64,000 nucleotides of DNA. Source: Caulobacteraceae bacterium (GTDB lineage: Bacteria; Pseudomonadota; Alphaproteobacteria; Caulobacterales; Aquidulcibacteraceae). Shown here in pieces: positions 5,320-26,400 of the stretch. The position numbers were made by a program, and so were the translations under genes. Position 1 is the stretch's first letter, and every line of letters begins with the position of its first letter. The stretch is taken from the NCBI GenBank assembly GCA_009773335.1, contig WRPF01000013.1, forward strand, positions 1 to 64,000. Direction: 5' to 3'. The notes below the pieces were generated by a model. The model was not told where the DNA came from. It was given only the letters and a program-made list of their open reading frames with translations, and did no database searches.

Positions 5320-7584
5320 ATGACCCCCTCGCCCGCCCCCGGCGCGGCGCGCGTGCTCGTGCGCAAGCTGCGCGAGATCACGAACACGTCCGACACGGCG
5401 CAGGCGAAGCTCAACCGCCTCGTGACCATGATCGCCTCGACGATGGTCGCGGACGTCTGCTCGATCTACCTGAAGCGCGGCATCATCCATGAACTGTTCG
5501 CGACCGAGGGCCTGAAGCCTGAAGCCGTGCACCGCACACGGCTGAAGGAGAACGAGGGCCTCGTCGGCCTCGTCGCAGAGACCGCCCGTCCGCTGAACAT
5601 CGCCGACGCGCCGCACCACTCGCGCTTTTCCTATCGCCCGGAAACCGGCGAAGACCCGTTCAACGCCTTCCTCGGTGTGCCCATCGTGCGCTCCGAGCGC
5701 GTGTTCGGCGTGCTCGTGGTGCAGAACCGCGCTTCGCGGGTCTACAGCGAAGAGGAAGTCGAGTCGCTGCAGATCGTCGCCATGGTGCTCATGGAGATGG
5801 TGGCGGCGGGCAGCTTCGGCGATCTCTCCGGCCTGCAGGAAGTCGAAGTCCGTCCGAGCCGGCCGGAACGGCTTGTGGGCCGTGCGTTCGCGGACGGTCT
5901 CGCCATTGGCCGCGCGGTGCTGCACGAACCGCACGCGCCGCTGGGTCGTGCGTTCTCCGACGATCCGGTGAAGGAAGAGGCGCGGCTCGATGCAGCGCTT
6001 GCGCGCGTGCGCAAGACCATCGACGAACACATCGAAAGCGATCCCGGCAGGCTTTCCGGACAATCGCGCGAAGTGCTCGAAACGTTCCGCATGCTGGCGA
6101 ACGATCACTCGTGGGAAGCGCGCCTCAAGCGCGGCGTGCGCGACGGACTATCTGCGGAAGCCGCCGCCGAACGTGCGCGCGCCGAACACCGCGCGAAGAT
6201 GCAGGCCGCGCGCGATGCGTACATGCGCGACCAGATGCACGATCTGGAGGATCTCGATAACCGGCTGATGCGCGCGCTCGCTTCGCCGGAGGGCGACGAC
6301 AAGCTGTCGCTGCCGGAGGACGCCATCCTCATCGCGCGCGATATCGGTCCCGCGGAGCTTCTCGACTACGGCGCCGACCGCCTCAAGGGCGTGGCGCTGG
6401 AAGAGGGCGGCGCTTCATCGCACGCAACCATCATCGCCAAGGCGCTCGGGATTCCGATGGTCGGGCGCCTCACGCAGATCGGCGCGCGTGTCGAGGCGGG
6501 CGACCGCATCGTGCTCGACGGCGAGCGCGGCGAGGCGCGGCTGCGGCCTGAGCCGGAAGTCGTCGTCGCCTACGAGCAGCGGCTCGAACTGCGGTCTGCG
6601 CAGGCCGAGGAATTCGCCCGCCAGCGCGACGATCCGGCGGTCACGCGCGATGGCGCGGAAATCTCTCTGCTGCTCAACGCTGGCCTCATGCTGGACGTGC
6701 AGCACCTCGCCGACACGGCGGCCAAGGGCATCGGCCTCTTCCGCACCGAGTTCCAGTTCATGGTGTCCGAGCGCCTCCCGCGCACCAGTGAGCAGATCAA
6801 GCTCTACAGCGACGTGCTCGCCGCTGCGGGCGATCGGCCCGTCACGTTCCGCACGCTCGATGTCGGCGGCGACAAGGTGCTCTCCTACGTGCCCACGGAG
6901 CGGGAGGAAAATCCTGCGCTCGGCTGGCGCGCGCTGCGCATCGGCCTGGAGCGGCCCGCGCTGCTGCGCACGCAGGTGCGCGCGCTCATCGAGGCCGCGG
7001 AGGGCAGGCGGCTGCGCGTCATGTTCCCGCTGGTCACCGTGCCGCAGGAATTCATCGATGCGCGCGAGATCGTGGAAAAGGAGCTCGCCGTCGCGCAGGC
7101 GCGCGGGCGCAAGGGGCCGGCGAAACTTGAGGTTGGCGTGATGATCGAGGCGCCGGCCATCGCCTTCGCCATCGGCATGTTGGCGGGCAAGGCGGACTTC
7201 CTGAGCATAGGCACCAACGACCTGATGCAGTATTTCTTCGCCGCCGATCGCAGCAACCCGCGTGTCGCAGACCGCTACGACATCCTCAGCGCGCCGGCCT
7301 TGAAGTTCCTGCGTTTCATCCGCGAGCAGGCGGCCGAGGCCGGGATGCCGCTGTCGGTCTGCGGCGAGGCGGCGGGCAAACCGCTGGAGGCGATGACGCT
7401 GATCGCGCTCGGGTATGACCGGCTCTCCATGCCGGCGGCCGGTATCGGGCCGGTCAAGCGCATGCTCCGCAGTCTGGATGCGCAGGCCGCGCATGCGGAA
7501 CTGGAAAGCCTTCTGAAGTCGCACAACACTTCGCTGCGCCCCGAGCTGAGCGCCTGGGCCAAGCGCGAGGGCGTCGCGCTCTGA
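5320..7584 (+). CDS. ptsP: phosphoenolpyruvate-protein phosphotransferase of the nitrogen PTS (EI-Ntr)
   Basis: EI-Ntr autophosphorylates from PEP and passes the phosphate to NPr and EIIA-Ntr, a regulatory rather than sugar-transport relay. The 754 residues begin with a GAF domain (roughly residues 20-165, with FLGVPIVRSERVFGVLVVQNR), which separates PtsP from sugar-type EI. Then follow the EI N-terminal domain, the phospho-histidine loop GGASSHATIIAK, and a PEP-binding TIM barrel with GIGLFRTEFQFM, TLDVGGDKVL, GVMIEAPAIAF, SIGTNDLMQYFFAADR and SVCGEAAG. In related systems GAF binds glutamine or 2-oxoglutarate. It is very probably in one operon with lysC. Confidence 0.96.
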   Translation: MTPSPAPGAARVLVRKLREITNTSDTAQAKLNRLVTMIASTMVADVCSIYLKRGIIHELFATEGLKPEAVHRTRLKENEGLVGLVAETARPLNIADAPHHSRFSYRPETGEDPFNAFLGVPIVRSERVFGVLVVQNRASRVYSEEEVESLQIVAMVLMEMVAAGSFGDLSGLQEVEVRPSRPERLVGRAFADGLAIGRAVLHEPHAPLGRAFSDDPVKEEARLDAALARVRKTIDEHIESDPGRLSGQSREVLETFRMLANDHSWEARLKRGVRDGLSAEAAAERARAEHRAKMQAARDAYMRDQMHDLEDLDNRLMRALASPEGDDKLSLPEDAILIARDIGPAELLDYGADRLKGVALEEGGASSHATIIAKALGIPMVGRLTQIGARVEAGDRIVLDGERGEARLRPEPEVVVAYEQRLELRSAQAEEFARQRDDPAVTRDGAEISLLLNAGLMLDVQHLADTAAKGIGLFRTEFQFMVSERLPRTSEQIKLYSDVLAAAGDRPVTFRTLDVGGDKVLSYVPTEREENPALGWRALRIGLERPALLRTQVRALIEAAEGRRLRVMFPLVTVPQEFIDAREIVEKELAVAQARGRKGPAKLEVGVMIEAPAIAFAIGMLAGKADFLSIGTNDLMQYFFAADRSNPRVADRYDILSAPALKFLRFIREQAAEAGMPLSVCGEAAGKPLEAMTLIALGYDRLSMPAAGIGPVKRMLRSLDAQAAHAELESLLKSHNTSLRPELSAWAKREGVAL

Positions 7585-7730
7585 GCATCTCGTCCACTGC
7601 AGTGAACGCGGGATTAACCAGACGCGTCGTTGAATGACCCGCCGCTTGTGAGTAGTATGAACGCGGCGCGGAACTTGCTTAAATTTCACTTCGACGGCGT
7701 GCGACGCGCGGCCGACGGAACCCAAAGACG

Positions 7731-8591
7731 ATGTTCAATCCTCCCCCGGGCACCCCTCATGACGGAAACGAAACGCCGGCTGCGCGCCCTCAGGCCCGCC
7801 CTGCGGCTGTCCTCCCCGCCATGGAGCCCAACATGAGAGCGGGCACCAAGCTGCGCACCGCGCGCGAAGCGCAGGGATTTTCGCTGGAACAGGTGGCGGC
7901 CAAGACCCGCATTCGCGTGGAGTACATCGCCGCGCTGGAGACGATGAACGTCAATCTCATTCCCGGCAAAGCCTACGCCAAGGCCTATCTCCGCAGCTAC
8001 GTGAAGTTCCTCGGCATGACCGGGGAAGAACTGATCTTCCAGTACGAGAACGAGAGCGCGCGCTTGCGCGAGGACGCTGGCGACCAGATCCGTAACCCGG
8101 ATTCGAAGCCCGCGCCGGAACGCCCCTGGCTGGCGGCTGCTGCGCTCGCGGTGGTCTGCGCGGCTTTCGTCGGCTGGCGGGCCATGCAGGACGGTTCGTC
8201 CGATACGTCCGCGCCGGCGCAGACCCGCACGGAGCGCGCTGAGGCGACCCTTCCCACCGCGCCGGTCCCGTCGCCGGCTTCGGAAGATCCCTGGGGCGGG
8301 CTCTCCACCCAGGTGGTCGAGATCCGTGCGACCGTGCCGGCGTGGCTTGAGGTCCGCGGTCCGGACGGCACCATCTTCGTCTCGCGGACCATCCAGGCCG
8401 GCGAGACCTACCGCCCCGACGTCGGCGGCAACTGGACGCTCCACGCCAAGGACGGCGGCGCCTTCGAGGTGCTGCTGAACGGCGCGCTTGTCGGCCCGCT
8501 CGGCGATACCGGTTCACCCGTTCTGGGCCGCCAGGTGGACCGGATCGCCGCTGCGCCGCCTGCGCCGGTCGCGCCAGCCGGCGAGGGCTGA
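7731..8591 (+). CDS. RodZ-like HTH protein with one membrane helix and DUF4115-type C-terminus
   Basis: A Cro/Xre-type helix-turn-helix (LRTAREAQGFSLEQVAAKTRIRVEYIAALE) lies near the N-terminus. It is followed by a charged linker, one membrane helix (PWLAAAALAVVCAAFVGWRAM, about residues 125-145), a proline/alanine-rich stretch and a C-terminal beta domain with VRGPDGTIFVSRTIQAG, as in RodZ. RodZ links the MreB cytoskeleton to the elongation machinery. Starts at 7731, 7821 and 7833 are possible; 7731 adds a Pro/Ala-rich leader of doubtful authenticity. The gene lies just upstream of ispG, a conserved pairing. That it acts as true RodZ here is inference. Confidence 0.8.
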   Translation: MFNPPPGTPHDGNETPAARPQARPAAVLPAMEPNMRAGTKLRTAREAQGFSLEQVAAKTRIRVEYIAALETMNVNLIPGKAYAKAYLRSYVKFLGMTGEELIFQYENESARLREDAGDQIRNPDSKPAPERPWLAAAALAVVCAAFVGWRAMQDGSSDTSAPAQTRTERAEATLPTAPVPSPASEDPWGGLSTQVVEIRATVPAWLEVRGPDGTIFVSRTIQAGETYRPDVGGNWTLHAKDGGAFEVLLNGALVGPLGDTGSPVLGRQVDRIAAAPPAPVAPAGEG

Positions 8592-10119: not shown

Positions 10120-10479
10120 ATGGCCATCGACATCTCGAAAATCCTCTCTTCCCTCGGCGACGAACTCGTCGCGCAGGCGGGCGAACCTGTGGGCCTCGAC
10201 AAGGACCAGTCGGTGCGCGTGGCGAAGGCGCTCGGCCAGCACATCGGCGGCGGCAAGGATCTCGCGATCAAGGCCGCGGCGGCAGACACCGGCCTCACCG
10301 AGGACGTGATTTCCTCCATGCTCACCAAGCTCATCGAGGCCGGCAAGGAAAAGCTCCTGAGCGAGGGCGCGGTCGGCGATGCGATCGAAAGCGCCAAGGA
10401 TCAGGCCATGACCGCCGTCGGCAACATCGGCGGCGAAGCCGCGAAAGGCATTTTCGGCAAGCTGTTCGGGAAGAAGTAG
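10120..10479 (+). CDS. conserved-looking small helical protein of unknown function
   Basis: This is a 119-residue protein starting MAIDISKILSSLGDELVAQAG. It is mostly alanine/lysine-rich amphipathic helix with a glycine-rich C-terminus (EAAKGIFGKLFGKK). There is no signal peptide, no clear membrane helix and no cysteine. The reading frame has alphaproteobacterial codon use. I do not recognise the family. It ends 17 bp before the convergent end of the S9 peptidase gene. Confidence 0.65.
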   Translation: MAIDISKILSSLGDELVAQAGEPVGLDKDQSVRVAKALGQHIGGGKDLAIKAAAADTGLTEDVISSMLTKLIEAGKEKLLSEGAVGDAIESAKDQAMTAVGNIGGEAAKGIFGKLFGKK

Positions 10480-10496: not shown

Positions 10497-12497
10497 TCAT
10501 GGCGTGATCGCCGGCGACGCGGGCGGCGCTGCTGACGCGGCCAGGTGCTGCGCGAGAAACGTTTCGATCTCCTCCAGCATCTGCGTGCGCGTGGCGGCGG
10601 CGGACAGCCAGTGGTCGTCTCCGGTCAGCACCACCACGCGCGGCGGCTTTCCCGCATCGCGCAGGCGTCGCGCCATGATTTTCGTCTGCTCCGGCGGCAC
10701 GACTGAATCTTCCGTCGAGTGCATCAGCAACACTGGCGCCCGTACGTTGGCCGCGAGATTCGCCGGCGACACGGCGCGGATGCGCGCGGCGTCCTCGGCG
10801 CGGTTGCCGATGGAGAGTTGCCAGAAGTCCGCGGTAGGACCATTCGCGTCGCCGTCGGTTTCCTGTTGCAGCATGAGTGAAAGATCCGAAACGCCGTTCA
10901 CGCTCACGGCGCAGGTGTAGCGATCAGGGGTGAGAGTCGCGCCAGCGAGCGCCGCATAGCCTCCATAGCTCGCGCCGATGATGCAGACCCGCTTCGCATC
11001 CACCCGACCGCCGCGCACGAGCGCGACGACGCCGTCTTCGACATCCGTCTGCATGCGTCCGCCCCATTCACGTCGGCCCGCCTCGCGCCACGCCTCGCCG
11101 TAGCCGGACGACCCGCGAAAGTTGGGTTGCAGGACCATGTAACCGCGCGAGGCAAGGAACTGCGCCCACCAGTCGAACGTCCAGGAGTCGCGCGAATGCG
11201 GGCCGCCGTGCACGAGCACGACGAGCGGGAGGTTGTTCGGTCCGCGACCTCTGGGAACAGTCAGATATGCGGGGATGCGGACACCGTCGCGGGCGCGGTA
11301 GGTGATCGCGCTGACGGCGGAAATTTCTTCGGCTTGGATGTCAGGGTACACGGAGCCCAGTAGTGTGAATCGCTTCGTCTCCGGTTCGTAAATTTGGTAG
11401 GCAGGCGGGCCACCTAGATTTTCGCCGAGCACAAGGAATCGTCTTTGATCTCGCGACCAAGAGAGAATCGACACGTGACCGTTTCTGAAAAACGAGCCAA
11501 GCTCGGTGCTGACCGCCTCGAGTTCTGGATCGAAGAAGTGTTGTCGGGGCTCCTCTTCCGTCCACGAGACACCGACGGCCCGGCGTGTCCATGGATCAAG
11601 GATCGCATCTGCGATGTCGTGGTGAGGTGCTTCATGGACGATGGTGCGAACACCAGTGTCGAGATCAATGCTGTACAAGGCATCGCGATCACGATTTTCC
11701 GGTGCGTCTATAGTTGCGAGCCGCCCATCGGTGAACAATCCAAGCAGCGGCGGCGGAACGCCAGTTTCGGAAACACCTTCCAATACAAGGCGTTCACGAC
11801 CATTTCGCCTAGCGAATAGCTTCCAGCTGTTAGATTTGTCCTGCGACTCGGTGCGTGCCGCCATTCGCCCTGTCTCATCGAGCAACAAGTCCCAACTGTC
11901 GGCAGGCGCGCTCAACAGAACACGCCCGTCGCCGGAAGATAAGTCGACTCGGTAGACCGCCAGCCGCCCTTCACGTGTAGGCGCTGTCCGAGCAACCATG
12001 CGACCGTATCCCGGATCGTCAACAACGGGTGCTTGCAAATAGTCTAGATTCGAGTTCGCCCAACTCCCAGTCTCTTTGTCCAGCATGACCATCGTGCGCC
12101 CTCGCGGGACGGCAATCGTCTGGACGCGGTAGTACTCGAACAGCCGCTTTGAGCCACGCCTTCGAAAACCCGTCATGGTCGCCTGATTTTTCGTTAGCGT
12201 TCTGCTGACGATGACGGTCGCTGTGGTTTCATTGGCCCACCCGACGCCTCTAGTTGTGTTTCCTTCTGGTGCATAGGCATTCAGCACGATCTGGTTCGTA
12301 TCGATGTTGAAGATACGTGCGTAGGTTCGGTCGTTGGGAGTCACGACCATTGCGACGTGACGACCGTCGGGGGAAATGGCGGCGTCCTGGATGACAGGCA
12401 ACCGCCCATAGACTTCCGCCGCCGGCGCCGGCTGCGCCAGGGCGGGCGCGCCGAGCGCAAGCACACAGAAAATCGCCAGCAGAAATCTTGCAGTCAT
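10497..12497 (-). CDS. secreted S9-family serine peptidase, copy A
   Basis: The protein starts MTARFLLAIFCVLALGAPALAQP, a Sec signal peptide, at 12497. An ATG one codon upstream and a longer frame from 12533 are less likely, because the twin gene starts at the same MTARFLLA. It has an N-terminal beta-propeller (about residues 30-400) and a C-terminal alpha/beta-hydrolase domain. That domain shows VLVHGGPHSRDSWTFDWWAQ, the nucleophile elbow GASYGGYA, the acid in MHSTEDSVVP and His in GDDHW, the S9 prolyl-oligopeptidase triad. It probably digests peptides in the periplasm. Its catalytic half is nearly identical to copy B. Its propeller half is divergent and has visibly lower G+C (about 50-63% in the 60-bp lines I counted, against 68-73%). 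Confidence 0.92.
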   Translation of the reverse strand: MTARFLLAIFCVLALGAPALAQPAPAAEVYGRLPVIQDAAISPDGRHVAMVVTPNDRTYARIFNIDTNQIVLNAYAPEGNTTRGVGWANETTATVIVSRTLTKNQATMTGFRRRGSKRLFEYYRVQTIAVPRGRTMVMLDKETGSWANSNLDYLQAPVVDDPGYGRMVARTAPTREGRLAVYRVDLSSGDGRVLLSAPADSWDLLLDETGRMAARTESQDKSNSWKLFARRNGRERLVLEGVSETGVPPPLLGLFTDGRLATIDAPENRDRDALYSIDLDTGVRTIVHEAPHHDIADAILDPWTRRAVGVSWTEEEPRQHFFDPELEAVSTELGSFFRNGHVSILSWSRDQRRFLVLGENLGGPPAYQIYEPETKRFTLLGSVYPDIQAEEISAVSAITYRARDGVRIPAYLTVPRGRGPNNLPLVVLVHGGPHSRDSWTFDWWAQFLASRGYMVLQPNFRGSSGYGEAWREAGRREWGGRMQTDVEDGVVALVRGGRVDAKRVCIIGASYGGYAALAGATLTPDRYTCAVSVNGVSDLSLMLQQETDGDANGPTADFWQLSIGNRAEDAARIRAVSPANLAANVRAPVLLMHSTEDSVVPPEQTKIMARRLRDAGKPPRVVVLTGDDHWLSAAATRTQMLEEIETFLAQHLAASAAPPASPAITP

Positions 12498-12536
12498 CAT
12501 CGTCCCCTTCGGTCCCACACCATTGCCTATCATAAT

Positions 12537-14555
12537 TCATCGCGCGTCCGGCTGTCTTGTGGGATGTGCGGTCTCGAAGGCTGGATGGGCGGCGGGTGCG
12601 GCCAGGTGCTGCGCGAGAAACGTCTCGATCTCCTCCAGCATCTGCGTGCGTGTCGCGGCGGCGGAGAGCCAGTGGTCATCACCAGTGAGCACGACAACGC
12701 GCGCCGACTTGCCCGCATCGCGCAGACGTCGCGCCATGATTTTCGTCTGCTCTGGCGGCACGACTGAATCTTCCGTCGAGTGCATGAGGAGGATCGGCGC
12801 GCGCACGTTGGCGGCGAGGTTTGCGGGCGACACGGCGCGGATCCGTGCGGCGTCCTCGGCGCGGTTGCCGATGGAAAGTTGCCAGAAGTCGGCGGTTGGC
12901 CCGTTGGCGTCGCCGCTCACTTCCTGCTGCAGCATCAGCGACAGGTCCGACACGCCATTGACGCTCACCGCGCAGGCGTAGCGTTCGGGCGTGAGCGCGG
13001 CGCCCGCGAGTGCGGCATAGCCCCCGTAACTCGCGCCGACGATGCACACGCGCCGCGCATCGACCCGACCGCTTCGCACGAGCGCGGCGACGCCGTCCTC
13101 AACGTCGGTCTGCATGCGGCCGCCCCATTCGCGCCGGCCCGCTTCGAGCCATGCGTCGCCATAACCTGACGATCCGCGAAAGTTTGGCTGCAAAACCATG
13201 TAGCCGCGCGAGGCAAGGAACTGCGCCCACCAGTCGAACGTCCAGGAATCACGCGCATGCGGGCCGCCGTGGACGAGCACGACGAGCGGGAGGTTGCGCG
13301 GCTCCAATCCGTTCGGGATCGTCAGGTAGGCCGGTATGCGCACGCCGTCGCGGGCAGGGTAATTGATCACTGAAACCGACGACACGCCTTCCGGCGGCAG
13401 TTCGGGATAGAGGGCGCCGAGCTTCCTCAGGCGCTTCTCCGCGGGTTCGTAGACGTAATAGGCGCCGGGGTTTCCGACGCCCTCGCCGAACACCAGTATG
13501 CGTCGCATGTCGCGCGACCACGACAGCACAAGCGCGTAACCGCCCTCGAACGTCGCCGTCACATCTCCGGCGATGGCGGCGAGGCCCGGGTCGAAGAAGT
13601 GCTGTTTCGGCAGGTCTTCGGTCCACTGCGCGCCGACGATGCGCCGCGTCCATGGATCGGCGATAGCGCCGGTTATGTCGTGGCGCGGGGCCTCGTGGAC
13701 GAGGGTGTGGGCGCCTGTCGCGAGGTCCACGCCGTAGAGACCGACACGGTCGCCGCCGTCGGGCGTTTCGAGCGTGGCGAGACGTCCGTCCGCGAGCAAT
13801 CCGAGCAGGGGCGGCGGCGCGCCGGTCTCCGATTCATCTTCGCCGATCTGTCGTTCGGCGTCGCCCTGGACCGAAAACAGCTTCCAGCGGTTGGTATTTT
13901 CCTGCGACTCCGTGCGCGCCACGAGCCGGCCGGACTCGTCGAGGAGCATGTCCCAGCTGCGAGGCGATGCGCTCTGCTGGATGCGGCCATCGCCCGTGAG
14001 CAGGTTGACGCGGTATATCGCCACCCGCCCATCGCGTGTGGGTGACGTACGCCCGAGCATGCGGCCGAAACCGGCGTCGCCGACAATGGGCGCCTGCAAG
14101 TCGTCGAGCCGCGTATTCGCCCAGCTCCCGTTCTCCTTTTCCATCATGAGTTTCATGCGACCGTCGGGCAACGTGATGGTGCCGACGCGAAAAAACTCGA
14201 AAAGCCGCTGCGCGTCGCGCCACCCGTATTCGTCCGCCCGCGACTGGTCCCATGTCAGGGCGGTGCTGAGGACGAAGGTCGCGGTGGTCTCGTTCGCCCA
14301 GCCGATCGAGCGCAGCGTGTGGTCCTTCGGCGAGGCGACAGTGAGCACGACCCGGCTCGCGTCGAGGTCATAGATGCGCGTGTAGGTCTGGTTATTGCCG
14401 GTCACGATCATCGCAACGTGGCGCCCGTCGGGAGAGATCGCCGCGTCGTCTATGTTTGGCAGGCGCCCGTAGACCGATGCCGGCGGTGGTTGCGCCACGG
14501 CCGGCGCGCCGAGCGCAAACGCGCAGACAATCGCCAGTAGAAATCTTGCGGTCAT
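12537..14555 (-). CDS. secreted S9-family serine peptidase, copy B
   Basis: This is the tandem paralogue of copy A, with the signal peptide MTARFLLAIVCAFALGAPAVAQ, a beta-propeller and the same catalytic signatures (GASYGGYA, HSTEDSVVP, GDDHW). The start at 14555 has a GGGGGA ribosome site. Its last residues, AHPAFETAHPTRQPDAR, do not match copy A. They match the C-terminus of the GST-zeta isomerase encoded immediately upstream (AHPAFQIAHPTRQADAR). The tail therefore looks like isomerase sequence captured at a duplication breakpoint. Gene order on this strand is isomerase, copy B, copy A, with gaps of only ~40 bp. Confidence 0.92.
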   Translation of the reverse strand: MTARFLLAIVCAFALGAPAVAQPPPASVYGRLPNIDDAAISPDGRHVAMIVTGNNQTYTRIYDLDASRVVLTVASPKDHTLRSIGWANETTATFVLSTALTWDQSRADEYGWRDAQRLFEFFRVGTITLPDGRMKLMMEKENGSWANTRLDDLQAPIVGDAGFGRMLGRTSPTRDGRVAIYRVNLLTGDGRIQQSASPRSWDMLLDESGRLVARTESQENTNRWKLFSVQGDAERQIGEDESETGAPPPLLGLLADGRLATLETPDGGDRVGLYGVDLATGAHTLVHEAPRHDITGAIADPWTRRIVGAQWTEDLPKQHFFDPGLAAIAGDVTATFEGGYALVLSWSRDMRRILVFGEGVGNPGAYYVYEPAEKRLRKLGALYPELPPEGVSSVSVINYPARDGVRIPAYLTIPNGLEPRNLPLVVLVHGGPHARDSWTFDWWAQFLASRGYMVLQPNFRGSSGYGDAWLEAGRREWGGRMQTDVEDGVAALVRSGRVDARRVCIVGASYGGYAALAGAALTPERYACAVSVNGVSDLSLMLQQEVSGDANGPTADFWQLSIGNRAEDAARIRAVSPANLAANVRAPILLMHSTEDSVVPPEQTKIMARRLRDAGKSARVVVLTGDDHWLSAAATRTQMLEEIETFLAQHLAAPAAHPAFETAHPTRQPDAR

Positions 14556-14595
14556 TTTCGTCCCCCACGGATCGAACAACTGGAATGAGGCTACC

Positions 14596-15252
14596 TCATC
14601 GCGCGTCGGCTTGCCTAGTCGGATGCGCGATCTGGAAGGCCGGATGCGCGGCGGCCGCCATGTCGATTTCGGCGATGCGGCGCCAGTAGCGGATGTCGAG
14701 CGCGTAGCGCGATACGGCGGCGTAGATCTGCGGCACGAGGCAGACGTCTGCGAGCGTGGGGTCTTTGCCCCAGCACCACGGGCCGCCCAGTGACCCTTTG
14801 GGACTGTCGGCGAGCATCTGCTCTATCGCGTGGAAGCCGTCCCTGATCCAGCGCGTGGCCCACGCGGCGACGCCCGCTTCGTCCTGGCCGTATTCCTTGC
14901 GCAGATATTGCAGCACGCGGAGATTGCCGAGCGGGTGGATGTCGCACGCCACCGCGTTGGCGATGGCGCGGACTTTCGCGCGCGCCACAGGATCTTGCGG
15001 CAGCAGCGGCGGTTTGGGATGCGTCTCCTCCAGCCATTCGATGATCGCCATCGATTGCGTGAGCGTCTCGCCCTCGTCGGTGACGAAGGCGGGCACGAGC
15101 CCTTGCGGATTGCGCGCGAGAAAGTCCGGATCGCGCTGCGCCGACGCGGTGAGATCGATCGCGACCTGTTCGTAGGCCACGCCCTTCAGCGCGAGCGCGA
15201 TGCGCGTGCGGTGCGACGTGCCGGAACGAAAATAGGTGTAGAGCGTCGCCAT
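14596..15252 (-). CDS. maiA: zeta-class GST: maleylacetoacetate or maleylpyruvate isomerase
   Basis: This 218-residue protein opens MATLYTYFRSGTSHRTRIALALKG, a zeta-class thioredoxin-fold N-terminus with the glutathione-activating Ser region. It continues with NPQGLVPAF and QSMAIIEWLEE, and ends in the family's AHPAFQ...RQ.DA tail. The enzyme performs glutathione-dependent cis-trans isomerization of a ring-cleavage product. Its start overlaps the stop of the FAH-family gene (TGATG), so the two are translationally coupled. The partner resembles fumarylpyruvate hydrolase of gentisate catabolism, so maleylpyruvate is as likely a substrate as maleylacetoacetate. Confidence 0.88.
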   Translation of the reverse strand: MATLYTYFRSGTSHRTRIALALKGVAYEQVAIDLTASAQRDPDFLARNPQGLVPAFVTDEGETLTQSMAIIEWLEETHPKPPLLPQDPVARAKVRAIANAVACDIHPLGNLRVLQYLRKEYGQDEAGVAAWATRWIRDGFHAIEQMLADSPKGSLGGPWCWGKDPTLADVCLVPQIYAAVSRYALDIRYWRRIAEIDMAAAAHPAFQIAHPTRQADAR

Positions 15253-21356: not shown

Positions 21357-23396
21357 TCACCAGATCTTCGCGCGCGCGTCCGGCGCGACGAACATCTTCT
21401 GGCCTTCAACCACGTTGAACGCCGCGTACCACGCATCGACGTTGCGCAGCGTGCCGTTGACGCGGAACTCCGCGGGGGAGTGGACGTCGGACGTGATCTG
21501 CTGCTTCAGCGCCTCCTCGCGCACCTTCTCGCGCCACGCCTGCGCGTAGGCGAGGAAGAAGCGCTGGTCGCCGCTGAGGCCGTCGAGCACGGGCGCTTCC
21601 TGGCCGTTGAGCGAGAGCTTGTAGGCGTCGAGCGCCACCAGCACGCCGCCGACATCGGCGATGTCTTCGCCCAGCGTCTGCTGACCGTTCATCTTGAAGC
21701 CGGGGATCGGCTCGAACGAGGAGTAGAGATCGACGATGCGCTTGGCGCGCTCGTTGAATTTCCTGTCGTCGTCGGGCGTCCACCACGTCTGCAGCAGGCC
21801 CTTGGCGTTGTAGAGGCGGCCCTGATCGTCGAAGCCGTGCGTGATCTCGTGGCCGATGACCGCGCCGATGGCGCCGTAGTTCACCGCCGGGTCTGCGGCA
21901 GGATCGAAGAAGGGCGGCTGCAGGATCGCGGCGGGGAAGACGATCTCGTTCTTCTCGGCCCAGTAGTAGGCGTTCACGGTCTGCGGCGTCATCAGCCACT
22001 CGTCGCGGTCGATCGGGCGCTTCAGCTTGCCGATTTCCCACGCGGTGTTGAACGCGCCCGCGCGATCGACGTTGCCGAGCAGGTCGCCGGCCTGCACGTC
22101 GAGGCTTGTGTAATCGCGCCACTTGTTCGGGTAGCCGATCTTCGTGCCGAAGGTGGAGAGCTTCTCCAAAGCCTTGGCCTTCGTTTCCGCCGACATCCAG
22201 TCCAGCGCCTCGATGCGCGGCTTCATCGCTTTCAGCAGGTTGTCGACGAGCACCTGCATCTTGGCCTTGGAGTCTTCCGGGAAGTGCCGCTTCACGTAGA
22301 CCTGGCCGATGGCTTCGCCGAGCGCGTCGTCCACCGCGCCGACGCCGCGCTTCCAGCGTTCGCGGTTCTGCTGCTGGCCGTTCAGCACCTTGCCGAAGAA
22401 CTCGAAGCGCGCGTCGACGAACGCCTTGGACAGGTACCGCGCCGCGCCGTTGATGCGGTGCGCGGTCATCCAGTCCTTCCACTCATCGAGCGGACGCGAC
22501 GCCACGAGTGCTGCGATCTTCTGCAGCGCGGTTTTCTCGTTGAGCGAGACCTGCGCCACGCCGTCGGCGCCCATCGCTTTCAGGAAAAGCGTCCAGTCGA
22601 GACCGGGCGCCGTCGTGTTGAGTGTTGCGACATCCACGAGATTGTAGGTCTTGATCGCGTCGCGCTGTTCCTCGAGCGCCCAGTGCGCCTGCGCGATGCG
22701 CCGCTCGAGCGCGAAGACGCGCGTCGCGCGCGCCCCCGGATCGGAAACGCCGGCGAGCGTGAGGATCTGTTCGAGATAGGCGCGGTACTTGCCGGCCTGC
22801 TCGGCGAATTTCGGGAGCAGCAGGTAATCGCGGTTCGGCAGGCCGATGCCGCCCTGCACGAGGTTCATCAGGTAGCGGTCGGAGTTCTTCGAATCGACGT
22901 TGACGTAGAAGTCGATCGGGGAGGGGTAACCCGCCGTGCCGAACAGCGTCGCCAGCGTGGCCTTGTCGGGCGCGGCGGCGATGGCGTCGAGGCTCGTCTT
23001 CAGGGGGCTCGCGCCTTTCGCTTCGACGCCAGCCTCGTCCATGAAGGCGTTGTAGTAGTCGCCGATCTTCTTCTCGACCGTGCCCGCGGCCGCCCCGGAT
23101 TTCGCGCTGTCCTCGATGATCGCGCGCACCTGCACTTCGGCGCGGTCGTAGACGATGTCGAAGGCGCCGAAGGAGGACTTGTCGGCGGGGATTTCCGTCC
23201 TGTCGAGCCACGCGCCGTTCACATGGCGGAAGAAATCATCGCCCGGCGCGATGGCGGTGTTGCGCGCGTCGAGCTCCACGCCCCAGGCGCCCAGTTCGGC
23301 CTTCGCCGGCGCCGCGGCCGGCTTCTTCACGCACGCGGCGACTGCGCTGACGACTGCGAGGCTCGCGCCAGCGCGAAGAAATGTTCTGCGATCCAT
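21357..23396 (-). CDS. M13-family (neprilysin-like) zinc metallopeptidase, probable lipoprotein
   Basis: This is a 679-residue oligopeptidase. The start MDRRTFLRAGASLAVVSAVAACVKKP carries a twin-arginine motif, a hydrophobic stretch and a lipobox-like AVAAC, so it is probably a Tat-exported lipoprotein. The zinc site is in VIGHEITHGFDDQGR (HExxH), with the third ligand in LGEDIADVGG, and the substrate-binding NAYYWAEKNEIVFPAAILQPPFF is conserved. The full length matches M13 peptidases. A longer frame from 23501 has no convincing extra N-terminus. It lies 53 bp after the RND permease gene on the same strand. Confidence 0.93.
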   Translation of the reverse strand: MDRRTFLRAGASLAVVSAVAACVKKPAAAPAKAELGAWGVELDARNTAIAPGDDFFRHVNGAWLDRTEIPADKSSFGAFDIVYDRAEVQVRAIIEDSAKSGAAAGTVEKKIGDYYNAFMDEAGVEAKGASPLKTSLDAIAAAPDKATLATLFGTAGYPSPIDFYVNVDSKNSDRYLMNLVQGGIGLPNRDYLLLPKFAEQAGKYRAYLEQILTLAGVSDPGARATRVFALERRIAQAHWALEEQRDAIKTYNLVDVATLNTTAPGLDWTLFLKAMGADGVAQVSLNEKTALQKIAALVASRPLDEWKDWMTAHRINGAARYLSKAFVDARFEFFGKVLNGQQQNRERWKRGVGAVDDALGEAIGQVYVKRHFPEDSKAKMQVLVDNLLKAMKPRIEALDWMSAETKAKALEKLSTFGTKIGYPNKWRDYTSLDVQAGDLLGNVDRAGAFNTAWEIGKLKRPIDRDEWLMTPQTVNAYYWAEKNEIVFPAAILQPPFFDPAADPAVNYGAIGAVIGHEITHGFDDQGRLYNAKGLLQTWWTPDDDRKFNERAKRIVDLYSSFEPIPGFKMNGQQTLGEDIADVGGVLVALDAYKLSLNGQEAPVLDGLSGDQRFFLAYAQAWREKVREEALKQQITSDVHSPAEFRVNGTLRNVDAWYAAFNVVEGQKMFVAPDARAKIW

Positions 23397-23449
23397 GCCC
23401 GAAATCTCCAGTATGTTTTTGCTTTTTCCCTGACCGATGGTCGCTCGCG

Positions 23450-26400
23450 TCACTCCGCCGGAGTCGCCGCCGGTGAGCGTCCGTTCCAGCCGCGCAGCCA
23501 CAGCCGTTGCACGCGGCCGAGGAGGCCCTTGATGTCCTTGCCGATGACATACCAGCAGGGCGTCAGGATCAGCGTCACCGGCATGCAGAGCAGCACGCCG
23601 AACGCCAGTGACAGCGCCATCGGCTTCAGGAACTGCGCGATGGCGGCGTTTTCCAGGATCATCGGCGCCATGCCGATGAACTCCGTCACGGAGGTGAGGA
23701 AGATCTGCCGGAAGCGGGAGACGCCCGCGTCCACCGCGCCGTTGATGACGCTGACGCGCGCAAGCGTGTAGCCTTCGGACTCCGCGTTTTCCGCCATTTC
23801 GCGCATTTCGCGCGCCTGATGGTGACGCCAGTCGTTGCGGGTGGCGAAGTAACCGGCGAATTCCGGCTCACCGGGCATGCCCGAACGCGTGTGCAGTTCT
23901 ATCGCGCCATCGCCGAAGTTCGCCGCGATGGACTTCCGCAGCAGAGGCTCGTCGAGTTCAAAACTCTCGCCGATCGGCTTCACTTCCCAGCGTGAGCCGT
24001 CTTCGCCTTCCACCTCGGCGAGTCCATCGGCCTCGCGCAGGCGTTCTCCGGGGGCGAGTTTGCGCAACCCGAAGAAGGCGCGGATCTGGTTGGCCTTGTC
24101 CACGAGCACGACGTTGTCGTTGACCACCACGCCCGCCGCCGCGATGACGCCGAGATAGGAGAAGAGCGCAAACGACGTGCCGAAGACCGCGTGCCCGAAC
24201 GTCGCGCCCACGAAGGCGAAGGGGATCGCCGACATGATCAGCGCCGGCTGCCAGTACGAGCGGAAGACGATCGCCAGCAGCATGTACATCGCAAACAGCG
24301 ACATCAGGATCAGCGGCCCGAGTTCGCCGAAGAACTCCGCCTGCGCCTCCGCCTCGCCGATCGCGCGGCGCGAGACGGTAGGATATTTCTGCAGGAGCGC
24401 CGGGAAGAACTGCTCGTCCAGCTCCTTCATGATCTTCGGGCGCTCTTCCTTCACGCCCTCGGCTTCCACGAGGATCGAGCGCAGCCGCTGGCGGCGGTCG
24501 AGGCCCGTGACGCCCGGCGCGAACTCGACGTCCGCCACCGACGCCAGCGGCACCTCGCGGCCGTCGGCGGTGCGGATGCGGAACTGCTGCAGGCTTTCCA
24601 GCGTGCGCCGGTCGTCGCGCGGATAGCGGACGTAGACGCGCACGTCGTCGCCGTCGCGCGGCAGGCGCTGCGCCTCCTCGCCGAAATAGGCCTGACGCAC
24701 CTGGCGCGAGACATCGGCGATGGAGATGCCGGTCTGCTCGGCGCCGGGCTTCAACGTGAAGCGCAATTCCTCGATGGCCGCTTCCTGGCTGTCGCGCACG
24801 CTGGAGATTGCGGTGTAGCTGGAGAGCTTGGCCTTCAGTTCATCGACGGCCGACCGCAGGTCCGCCTGGTTCTCGCCGAGAATGGCGATCTGGAATTCCG
24901 GTCCGTTGTCATTGCCCGAGAGTGAGAAGCTGATTCGTTCCGCGTCGGGCACTTCGCCAAGGAGTTCCTCAAGGCGCGCCGTCACCTGCTTGGAGCGCAG
25001 CTTCGGGCGACCCTCCGGCGGCGTGAGGCCGACATAGGCGCGGATCGAGTTCTCCTCGATCGCCTGGCTCCACGAGCGCACCACGCCGCGCGACATCTTT
25101 CCGGTGTTGGGATCCTTGTAGGCGACCTCGGCGGTCTCCTTCTCCAGCTGGATGCGCGCCGCGTCGAGCTGGGCGGCGACTTCCTCCATGCGCGAGAAGG
25201 GCGCCGTCTGCGGCAGCTCGATGGAAGCCATCATGAAGTCGCCTTCGACGTCAGGCATGAAGGTCTGCTTGACGCGCCCGGTGCTGACATAGCTGACCGC
25301 GATCATGAACACGCCGATGAAGATCGCGAGCGTCAGGTAGCGCCACTTCACCGCGCCGCGCAGCAGCGGGCCGTGGACGTTGCGCGCCACCCAGATCACG
25401 GAATGCGCGCACTTCTGCTGGAAGGTCATCAGGCGGCCGAAGAACGTGTCGCTGCCCTTGGGCATCGTCACGTGCGCTAGGTGCGCCGGCAGGATGATGA
25501 GGCTCTCGATCAGCGAGAACACCAGCGTCGAGATGACGACGATGGAGATCGATCGCGTGAACTGCTGCACTTCGCTCTGCAGCAGCATCCAAGGCGAGAA
25601 CGCGATCATGGTCACGAACACCGACGCCACGAGCGGCTTCAGCACCAGTTGCGTCGCAATGATGGACGCGTCCGCCCCGTGTTCCCCGCGCTCGATGCGC
25701 TCATAGACCGCCTCGCCGACGATGATGGCGTCGTCGACCATGATGCCGAGCACCAGCAGGAAGCCGAACACCGTCATGAAGTTCAGCGACACGTTCATGT
25801 ACGGCAGGATGAAGAACGAGCCGAGGAAGGCCGTCATCACGCCGATGGTCGCCCAGGTCGCCACCTTCGGGTGCAGCGTCAGCAGCAGCAGCAGGAAGAT
25901 CAGCCCGAAGCCCTGCATGGCGTTCTGGAAGAGGATGCCGGTCAGCGCGTTGTAGTCTTCCGCCTGGTTGTAGACAGGCGTGATCTGGAGGCCCGTCGGC
26001 AGTTGGTCGCGGGCCTTCTTCAGGACCTCGTCCACCTTCTTGGACACGTCCCAGATGTTGAACGTGTCGCCGACCTGCACGGTGACCAGCAGGGACGCCT
26101 CGCCGTTCATCCGCGAATAGACGTTCACGTCCTGGAAGCCGTCGATGACCTTCGCCACATCGCCCACTTTCACGATGCCGCCATCGGCGGTCTGGCGAAT
26201 GGTGATGGCTTCAAAGTCGATGCGCGTGTCGGCGAGGTTGCGCGCGCGCAGCTGGTAGTCGCCGTCCTGCGTCCGCACGGAGCCTGACGACAGGTTGATC
26301 GACGTGCGCCGGATCGCGCTCGCCACGTCGTCGAAGGTCAGCCCGTAGGCGCGCAACTGGTCCTCGGAAATCTCGATGGAGACTTCAGGCTGGCGGGCGC

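Follow-up and report, generated by a model that had tools for sequence, protein, structure and literature searches.

Chimeric genes are formed at the breakpoints of tandem duplications in Drosophila yakuba (PMC5460883), tandem duplications bordered by microhomology have been shown in Escherichia coli (PMC11111574) and fusion genes born by deletion have been described across bacteria (PMC12803068). Here we describe a locus within the first 64,000 nucleotides of contig WRPF01000013.1 from a Caulobacteraceae bacterium (the stretch of DNA analysed, hereafter the window) in which a peptidase gene, pepB, has a C-terminus matching that of the adjacent isomerase gene, maiA. As in the D. yakuba chimeras (PMC5460883), a duplication that ended within a neighbouring gene would have joined parts of two genes in a new frame with the parent copies kept. 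Here, however, the organism is a bacterium, the captured part is C-terminal and only ~20 codons long, and the chimera, with a dS of about 0.7, appears to have persisted since about the time when this lineage separated from its nearest sampled relative. The E. coli duplications (PMC11111574) likewise have a short GC-rich similarity and a new join, but they were engineered and laboratory-selected, whereas the pepB event is natural, fixed and known from sequence, and the similarity at its breakpoints is about 7 nt, a length for which exact measurement is no longer possible. In the deletion-born fusions (PMC12803068), as here, a structural change puts the beginning of one gene and the end of a second into a single fusion; pepB, in contrast, would have been made by duplication, with both parents kept and nothing lost. 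Our literature search returned no direct precedent for a natural bacterial case, although this is weak evidence, as most subscription journals lie outside its coverage.

Genes of the locus and the shared C-terminal tail

The three genes are on the minus strand, in the order maiA, pepB, pepA. The features to which the text refers are, with their basis:

14596..15252, minus strand: maiA, maleylacetoacetate isomerase (zeta-class GST), tail donor; NCBIfam TIGR01262 equivalog
14596..14660, minus strand: 3′ end of maiA, part of the proposed duplicated unit; 48/59 identity with 12537-12595
14556..14595, minus strand: maiA-pepB gap, 40 nt, putative spacer copy 1
12537..14555, minus strand: pepB, predicted S9 (prolyl oligopeptidase family) peptidase with a signal-like N-terminus and a chimeric C-terminus; PF00326
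12598..12604, minus strand: approximate position of the putative duplication junction in pepB, TGGCCGC (in maiA, TGGCGGC); identity switch, within ~6 nt
12537..12597, minus strand: maiA-derived end of pepB, ~20 codons with the stop codon counted; match to maiA and pLDDT
12498..12536, minus strand: pepB-pepA gap, 39 nt, putative spacer copy 2
10497..12497, minus strand: pepA, predicted S9 peptidase that retains the native C-terminal end (AASAAPPASPAITP); PF00326
11235..12339, minus strand: central part of pepA, divergent and low in GC3, a probable replacement; change points, pS and GC3

With 264 bits against TIGR01262, above the equivalog cut-off of 171, maiA is annotated unambiguously as a maleylacetoacetate isomerase. 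pepB runs from an ATG at 14555 to a stop codon whose last base is 12537, and pepA from an ATG at 12497 to a stop codon whose last base is 10497. Their products are 70% identical in amino acid sequence, both have a signal-like N-terminus, and both match Pfam PF00326 (E values of 3e-47 and 4e-48, with 161 and 164 bits, for pepB and pepA respectively) above the curated cut-off of 22.6 bits. In the alignment, S509 (within GASYGGY), D596 and H628 are invariant and follow the Ser-Asp-His order. The AlphaFold model of pepB (mean pLDDT 79.8) has a strand-rich N-terminal part preceding the alpha/beta domain, as in an S9 peptidase, and its PDB matches are S9 peptidases and acylaminoacyl peptidases. Both genes are placed in peptidase family S9 and are predicted to encode peptidases. 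Members of the S9 acylaminoacyl-peptidase type (PDB 8wt1, 5l8s, 3azo) combine a propeller with an alpha/beta-hydrolase fold, as does pepB, and pepA and pepB likewise have the GASYGGY serine motif and the residues D596 and H628. The solved members are <20% identical to pepB over the whole fold, and pepB differs from them by an extra tail that is modelled as disordered.

The initial annotation, made from the window alone, held that pepB ends almost as maiA does and that pepA ends otherwise. The peptide ends are as quoted there, AAPAAHPAFETAHPTRQPDAR for pepB, AAAAHPAFQIAHPTRQADAR for maiA and AASAAPPASPAITP for pepA. The DNA match that accompanied this claim, 12535-12597 with 14595-14660, was placed correctly to within a few bases: 12537-12595 and 14596-14654 are 81% identical (48/59), with the stop codons in register, and the next-best match for the pepB tail on either strand of the 64 kb is 31/59. 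A chimeric C-terminus had also been proposed and is evident as a sharp switch in pepB, from pepA-like to maiA-like, at about 12593-12604. Before the switch, pepB and pepA differ by one mismatch in 37 bases; past it, pepB is maiA-like. The sequence TGGCCGC adjoins the switch in pepB (12598-12604) and is present in pepA (10537-10543), and TGGCGGC occupies the corresponding switch position in maiA (14654-14660). The similarity claimed for the ~40-bp gaps upstream of the two peptidase genes holds for only part of their length. The two gaps are clearly similar in the half that adjoins the peptidase start and hardly so in the distal half, with an overall global score of P = 0.017 relative to shuffles.

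Direction, age and setting of the proposed duplication

Single-copy relatives with a peptidase that already ended in the AHPAF tail had been named as the observation that would count against a duplication. This tail is absent from all 11 single-copy peptidase relatives (40-49% identical), nearly all of which stop near the pepA end, shortly past the helix FLAQHL. The maiA genes of two congeners (85 and 75% identical) have almost the same C-terminal peptide and no peptidase gene beside them. As the tail is present in congener maiA without a neighbouring peptidase, it belongs to maiA, and the direction of transfer is from maiA to pepB. The fused part and the full parental maiA are both present, in the order expected of a tandem duplication.

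The synonymous divergence (pS) of the tail, 0.54 (CI 0.25-0.81), is compatible with the values between the peptidase genes, 0.42 in the 5′ end and 0.46 in the 3′ catalytic part. Since such agreement of the tail with the shared peptidase ends is required by a single event, the data support one tandem duplication of ~2.06 kb that would account for the full-length maiA, for a chimeric copy upstream and a native copy downstream, and for the repeated spacer. The tandem duplication of the isomerase 3′ end, gap and peptidase suggested in the initial annotation thus gains support from the tail, the polarity and the divergence.

Several measures bear on the age of this event. The ends of pepA and pepB have dS values of 0.63-0.71, close to those for orthologues in the window and G001 (0.47-0.78). 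By most measures the congener G001 is the sister of the window: for the FAH-like gene, dS is 0.47 between these two, whereas the other pairs give 0.60 and 0.70. In the tail, five sites unite pepB with the maiA of the window, two unite the maiA of the window with that of G001 and none supports the third pairing (bootstrap 0.81), few sites in all, as this dating rests on 19 aligned codons. The five sites that the pepB tail and the maiA of the window have in common relative to the congeners are the first base of ATC/ACC, an AGG/AGA arginine, CGA and two in TGA. As the tail groups with the maiA of the window, rather than with that of the sister species, the event would postdate the split from G001, and the duplication probably occurred soon after that split, a conclusion held with moderate, not strong, confidence. 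Where pepB has RQPDAR, as does G001, the maiA of the window now has RQADAR, and from this comparison of sequences the change in maiA is placed after the duplication.

In G001 and G002, a haem-NO-binding (H-NOX) protein and a histidine kinase are encoded on the other strand between maiA and the orthologue of a gene that, in the window, is at 10120-10479 and encodes 119 amino acids (the site in the congeners is at L090 6317-8083 and L091 1208-3024). The H-NOX protein has no match in the genome from which the window comes. Probably the peptidase came in, replacing the H-NOX/histidine-kinase pair; loss in the two congeners is a possible alternative. The gene order maiA-peptidase, described in the initial annotation as ancestral, would then apply just before the duplication in this lineage, but it does not extend to the two congeners, which have no peptidase at this position. 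The check suggested with it, for genomes with a single peptidase gene beside maiA, returned none in 60 family-level and 398 order-level genomes, nor around any of the peptidase loci. In G015, a single-copy homologue 44-45% identical to the peptidases is located between the rodZ-like and ispG orthologues (L097, about 6424-8283), near the counterpart of the neighbourhood in the window, and peptidases of the pepA/pepB kind may therefore have a longer history in this region.

Two further observations concern peptidase genes in relatives. G022 (L098/L078) has a peptidase homologue in two overlapping frames, as if frameshifted, with the C-terminal part 61% and the N-terminal part 37% identical. G002 has a tandem pair of M13-family peptidase genes (L091 5966-7903 and 8061-10190), 77% and 50% identical to the one M13 peptidase in the window (21357-23501), and so another tandem peptidase pair is present in the same genus and region.

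The divergent middle of pepA and the proposed sequence of events

Divergence is not uniform over the duplicated unit. A fit with two change points, computed without the tail (LR 69), gives nucleotide identities between pepA and pepB of 0.80 before, 0.62 within and 0.86 after codons ~52-420 of pepA (12339-11235). In this middle region pS is 0.71 (CI 0.63-0.77) and saturated, whereas the 3′ part, at 0.46 (CI 0.39-0.53), is unsaturated. GC3 is 0.60 in the middle of pepA versus 0.80 in its own ends (P = 6e-8) and is even along pepB. Sliding pS and GC3 values along pepA describe a mosaic. Tree distances are 0.82 for the middle and 0.105 for the C-terminal part, and the corresponding ratio of protein distances, 7.9, compares with 4.2 for the next highest pair and a median of 2.8 (all pairs, 13 proteins). 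Uniform divergence is expected only if there were no later events and so is not strictly defining for a chimera born by duplication. Because the pepA middle is saturated while the ends and the tail agree, a later replacement is proposed, in which the middle of pepA was probably exchanged, by recombination, for that of a lower-GC homologue. The replaced stretch ends near the propeller/hydrolase boundary. This difference in history between the middle and the ends of pepA had escaped the initial annotation.

The pepA middle still groups with pepB (55%, the next being 38%), and the donor would therefore be a relative outside the genomes searched; across 385 class-level and 60 family-level genomes, no candidate was closer than 38%. 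Rapid evolution of the propeller was rejected as the sole cause, as there is also a step in synonymous divergence and in GC3, and the ratio of 7.9 is outside those of all other pairs. That the pepB middle was the one replaced is disfavoured, as its GC3 (0.83) resembles that of the flanking sequence, unlike the GC3 of the pepA middle.

We envisage the following order of events and assign this account as a whole a probability of roughly 0.87. First, a gene for an S9 peptidase whose N-terminus is signal-like would have arrived directly downstream of maiA in this lineage. A tandem duplication of ~2.06 kb would have followed, with the left breakpoint ~60 bp short of the maiA end, the right one ~40 bp short of the end of the peptidase gene and both at the short GC-rich similarity TGGCSGC. 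Through the resulting in-frame join, the upstream copy, pepB, would have gained the last ~20 codons and stop of maiA and, behind this tail, a second copy of the maiA-peptidase spacer, with the downstream copy, pepA, retaining the native end. Later, recombination with a distant homologue of lower GC content would have swapped ~1.1 kb of central pepA sequence, which encodes most of the propeller domain. Counting against this account are the failure to find maiA beside one peptidase gene in any genome searched, the shortness of the tail, the weak likeness of the distal spacer halves and the absence of a donor for the pepA middle from the genomes surveyed.

The main rival to replacement of the pepA middle is an older pair of paralogues with 5′ and 3′ ends homogenised by gene conversion, the maiA tail having reached pepB by a separate conversion or insertion. 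Gene conversion is common between tandem copies, and synonymous saturation of the middle (pS 0.71), but of neither end, is the pattern that it could leave. Nevertheless, several independent events would have to result, by coincidence, in similar synonymous divergence in the 5′ end, the 3′ end and the tail, and both the confinement of low GC3 to the pepA middle and the copied spacer beside the pepA start would be left unexplained, so that we consider this history unlikely. Less probable still is an assembly artefact in which sequences of related strains were merged into one locus. The genome is a draft of 285 contigs with an estimated contamination of 2.5%, and the composition of pepA does shift twice, but the repeats differ by ~15-20%, too much for joining by k-mer collapse, both genes are intact, and two switches would be needed within pepA, each at a homologous position. 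Convergence on a shared functional motif, or chance, is in effect refuted as the origin of the similar C-termini by the match in the DNA, for although both tails are Ala/Pro-rich in high-GC DNA, their 81% nucleotide identity includes shared codons absent from congener maiA (AGR arginine, CGA, TGA), the match lies exactly at the stop codons, the next best in the window is 31/59, and homologues are without the motif.

The captured tail and the significance of the locus

The captured tail could be a passenger or could be maintained. Residues 654-672 of pepB have pLDDT values <50 in the AlphaFold model. Because the tail is modelled as disordered and extends beyond the catalytic domain, passenger is the default interpretation. 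The tails of maiA and pepB differ by 3 non-synonymous and 8 synonymous changes, where 8.5-11 non-synonymous changes are expected if the pepB tail drifted freely (P = 0.004-0.03, a test that uses no ancestral states). Reconstruction with the most likely ancestral states assigns 6 synonymous and 1 non-synonymous change to the pepB branch, with a P value of 0.0013 that depends on those states, only two or three of the changes being unambiguous. These counts are suggestive of fewer amino acid changes in the pepB tail than under neutrality, and ongoing gene conversion with maiA as donor could also have produced them. A more elaborate proposal, that the tail, a 20-residue piece of a cytosolic isomerase, is under amino acid-level selection on an exported peptidase, through stability, localisation or interaction, and that the substrate-filtering propeller of the sister copy was changed by acquisition of a foreign middle, is speculative, and we consider it doubtful.

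In pepB a known mutational mechanism can be read in a natural setting; the locus is a worked example that introduces no new principle. Tandem duplications are very frequent in bacteria and mostly transient, and old, diverged natural cases that can be read at both breakpoints are useful for that reason. The shared and private changes in the tail bound the pepB event in time, and the locus illustrates that the members of a duplicate pair can come to differ in two ways, by a new C-terminus acquired through the duplication and by a new middle acquired through later recombination near the propeller/hydrolase boundary.
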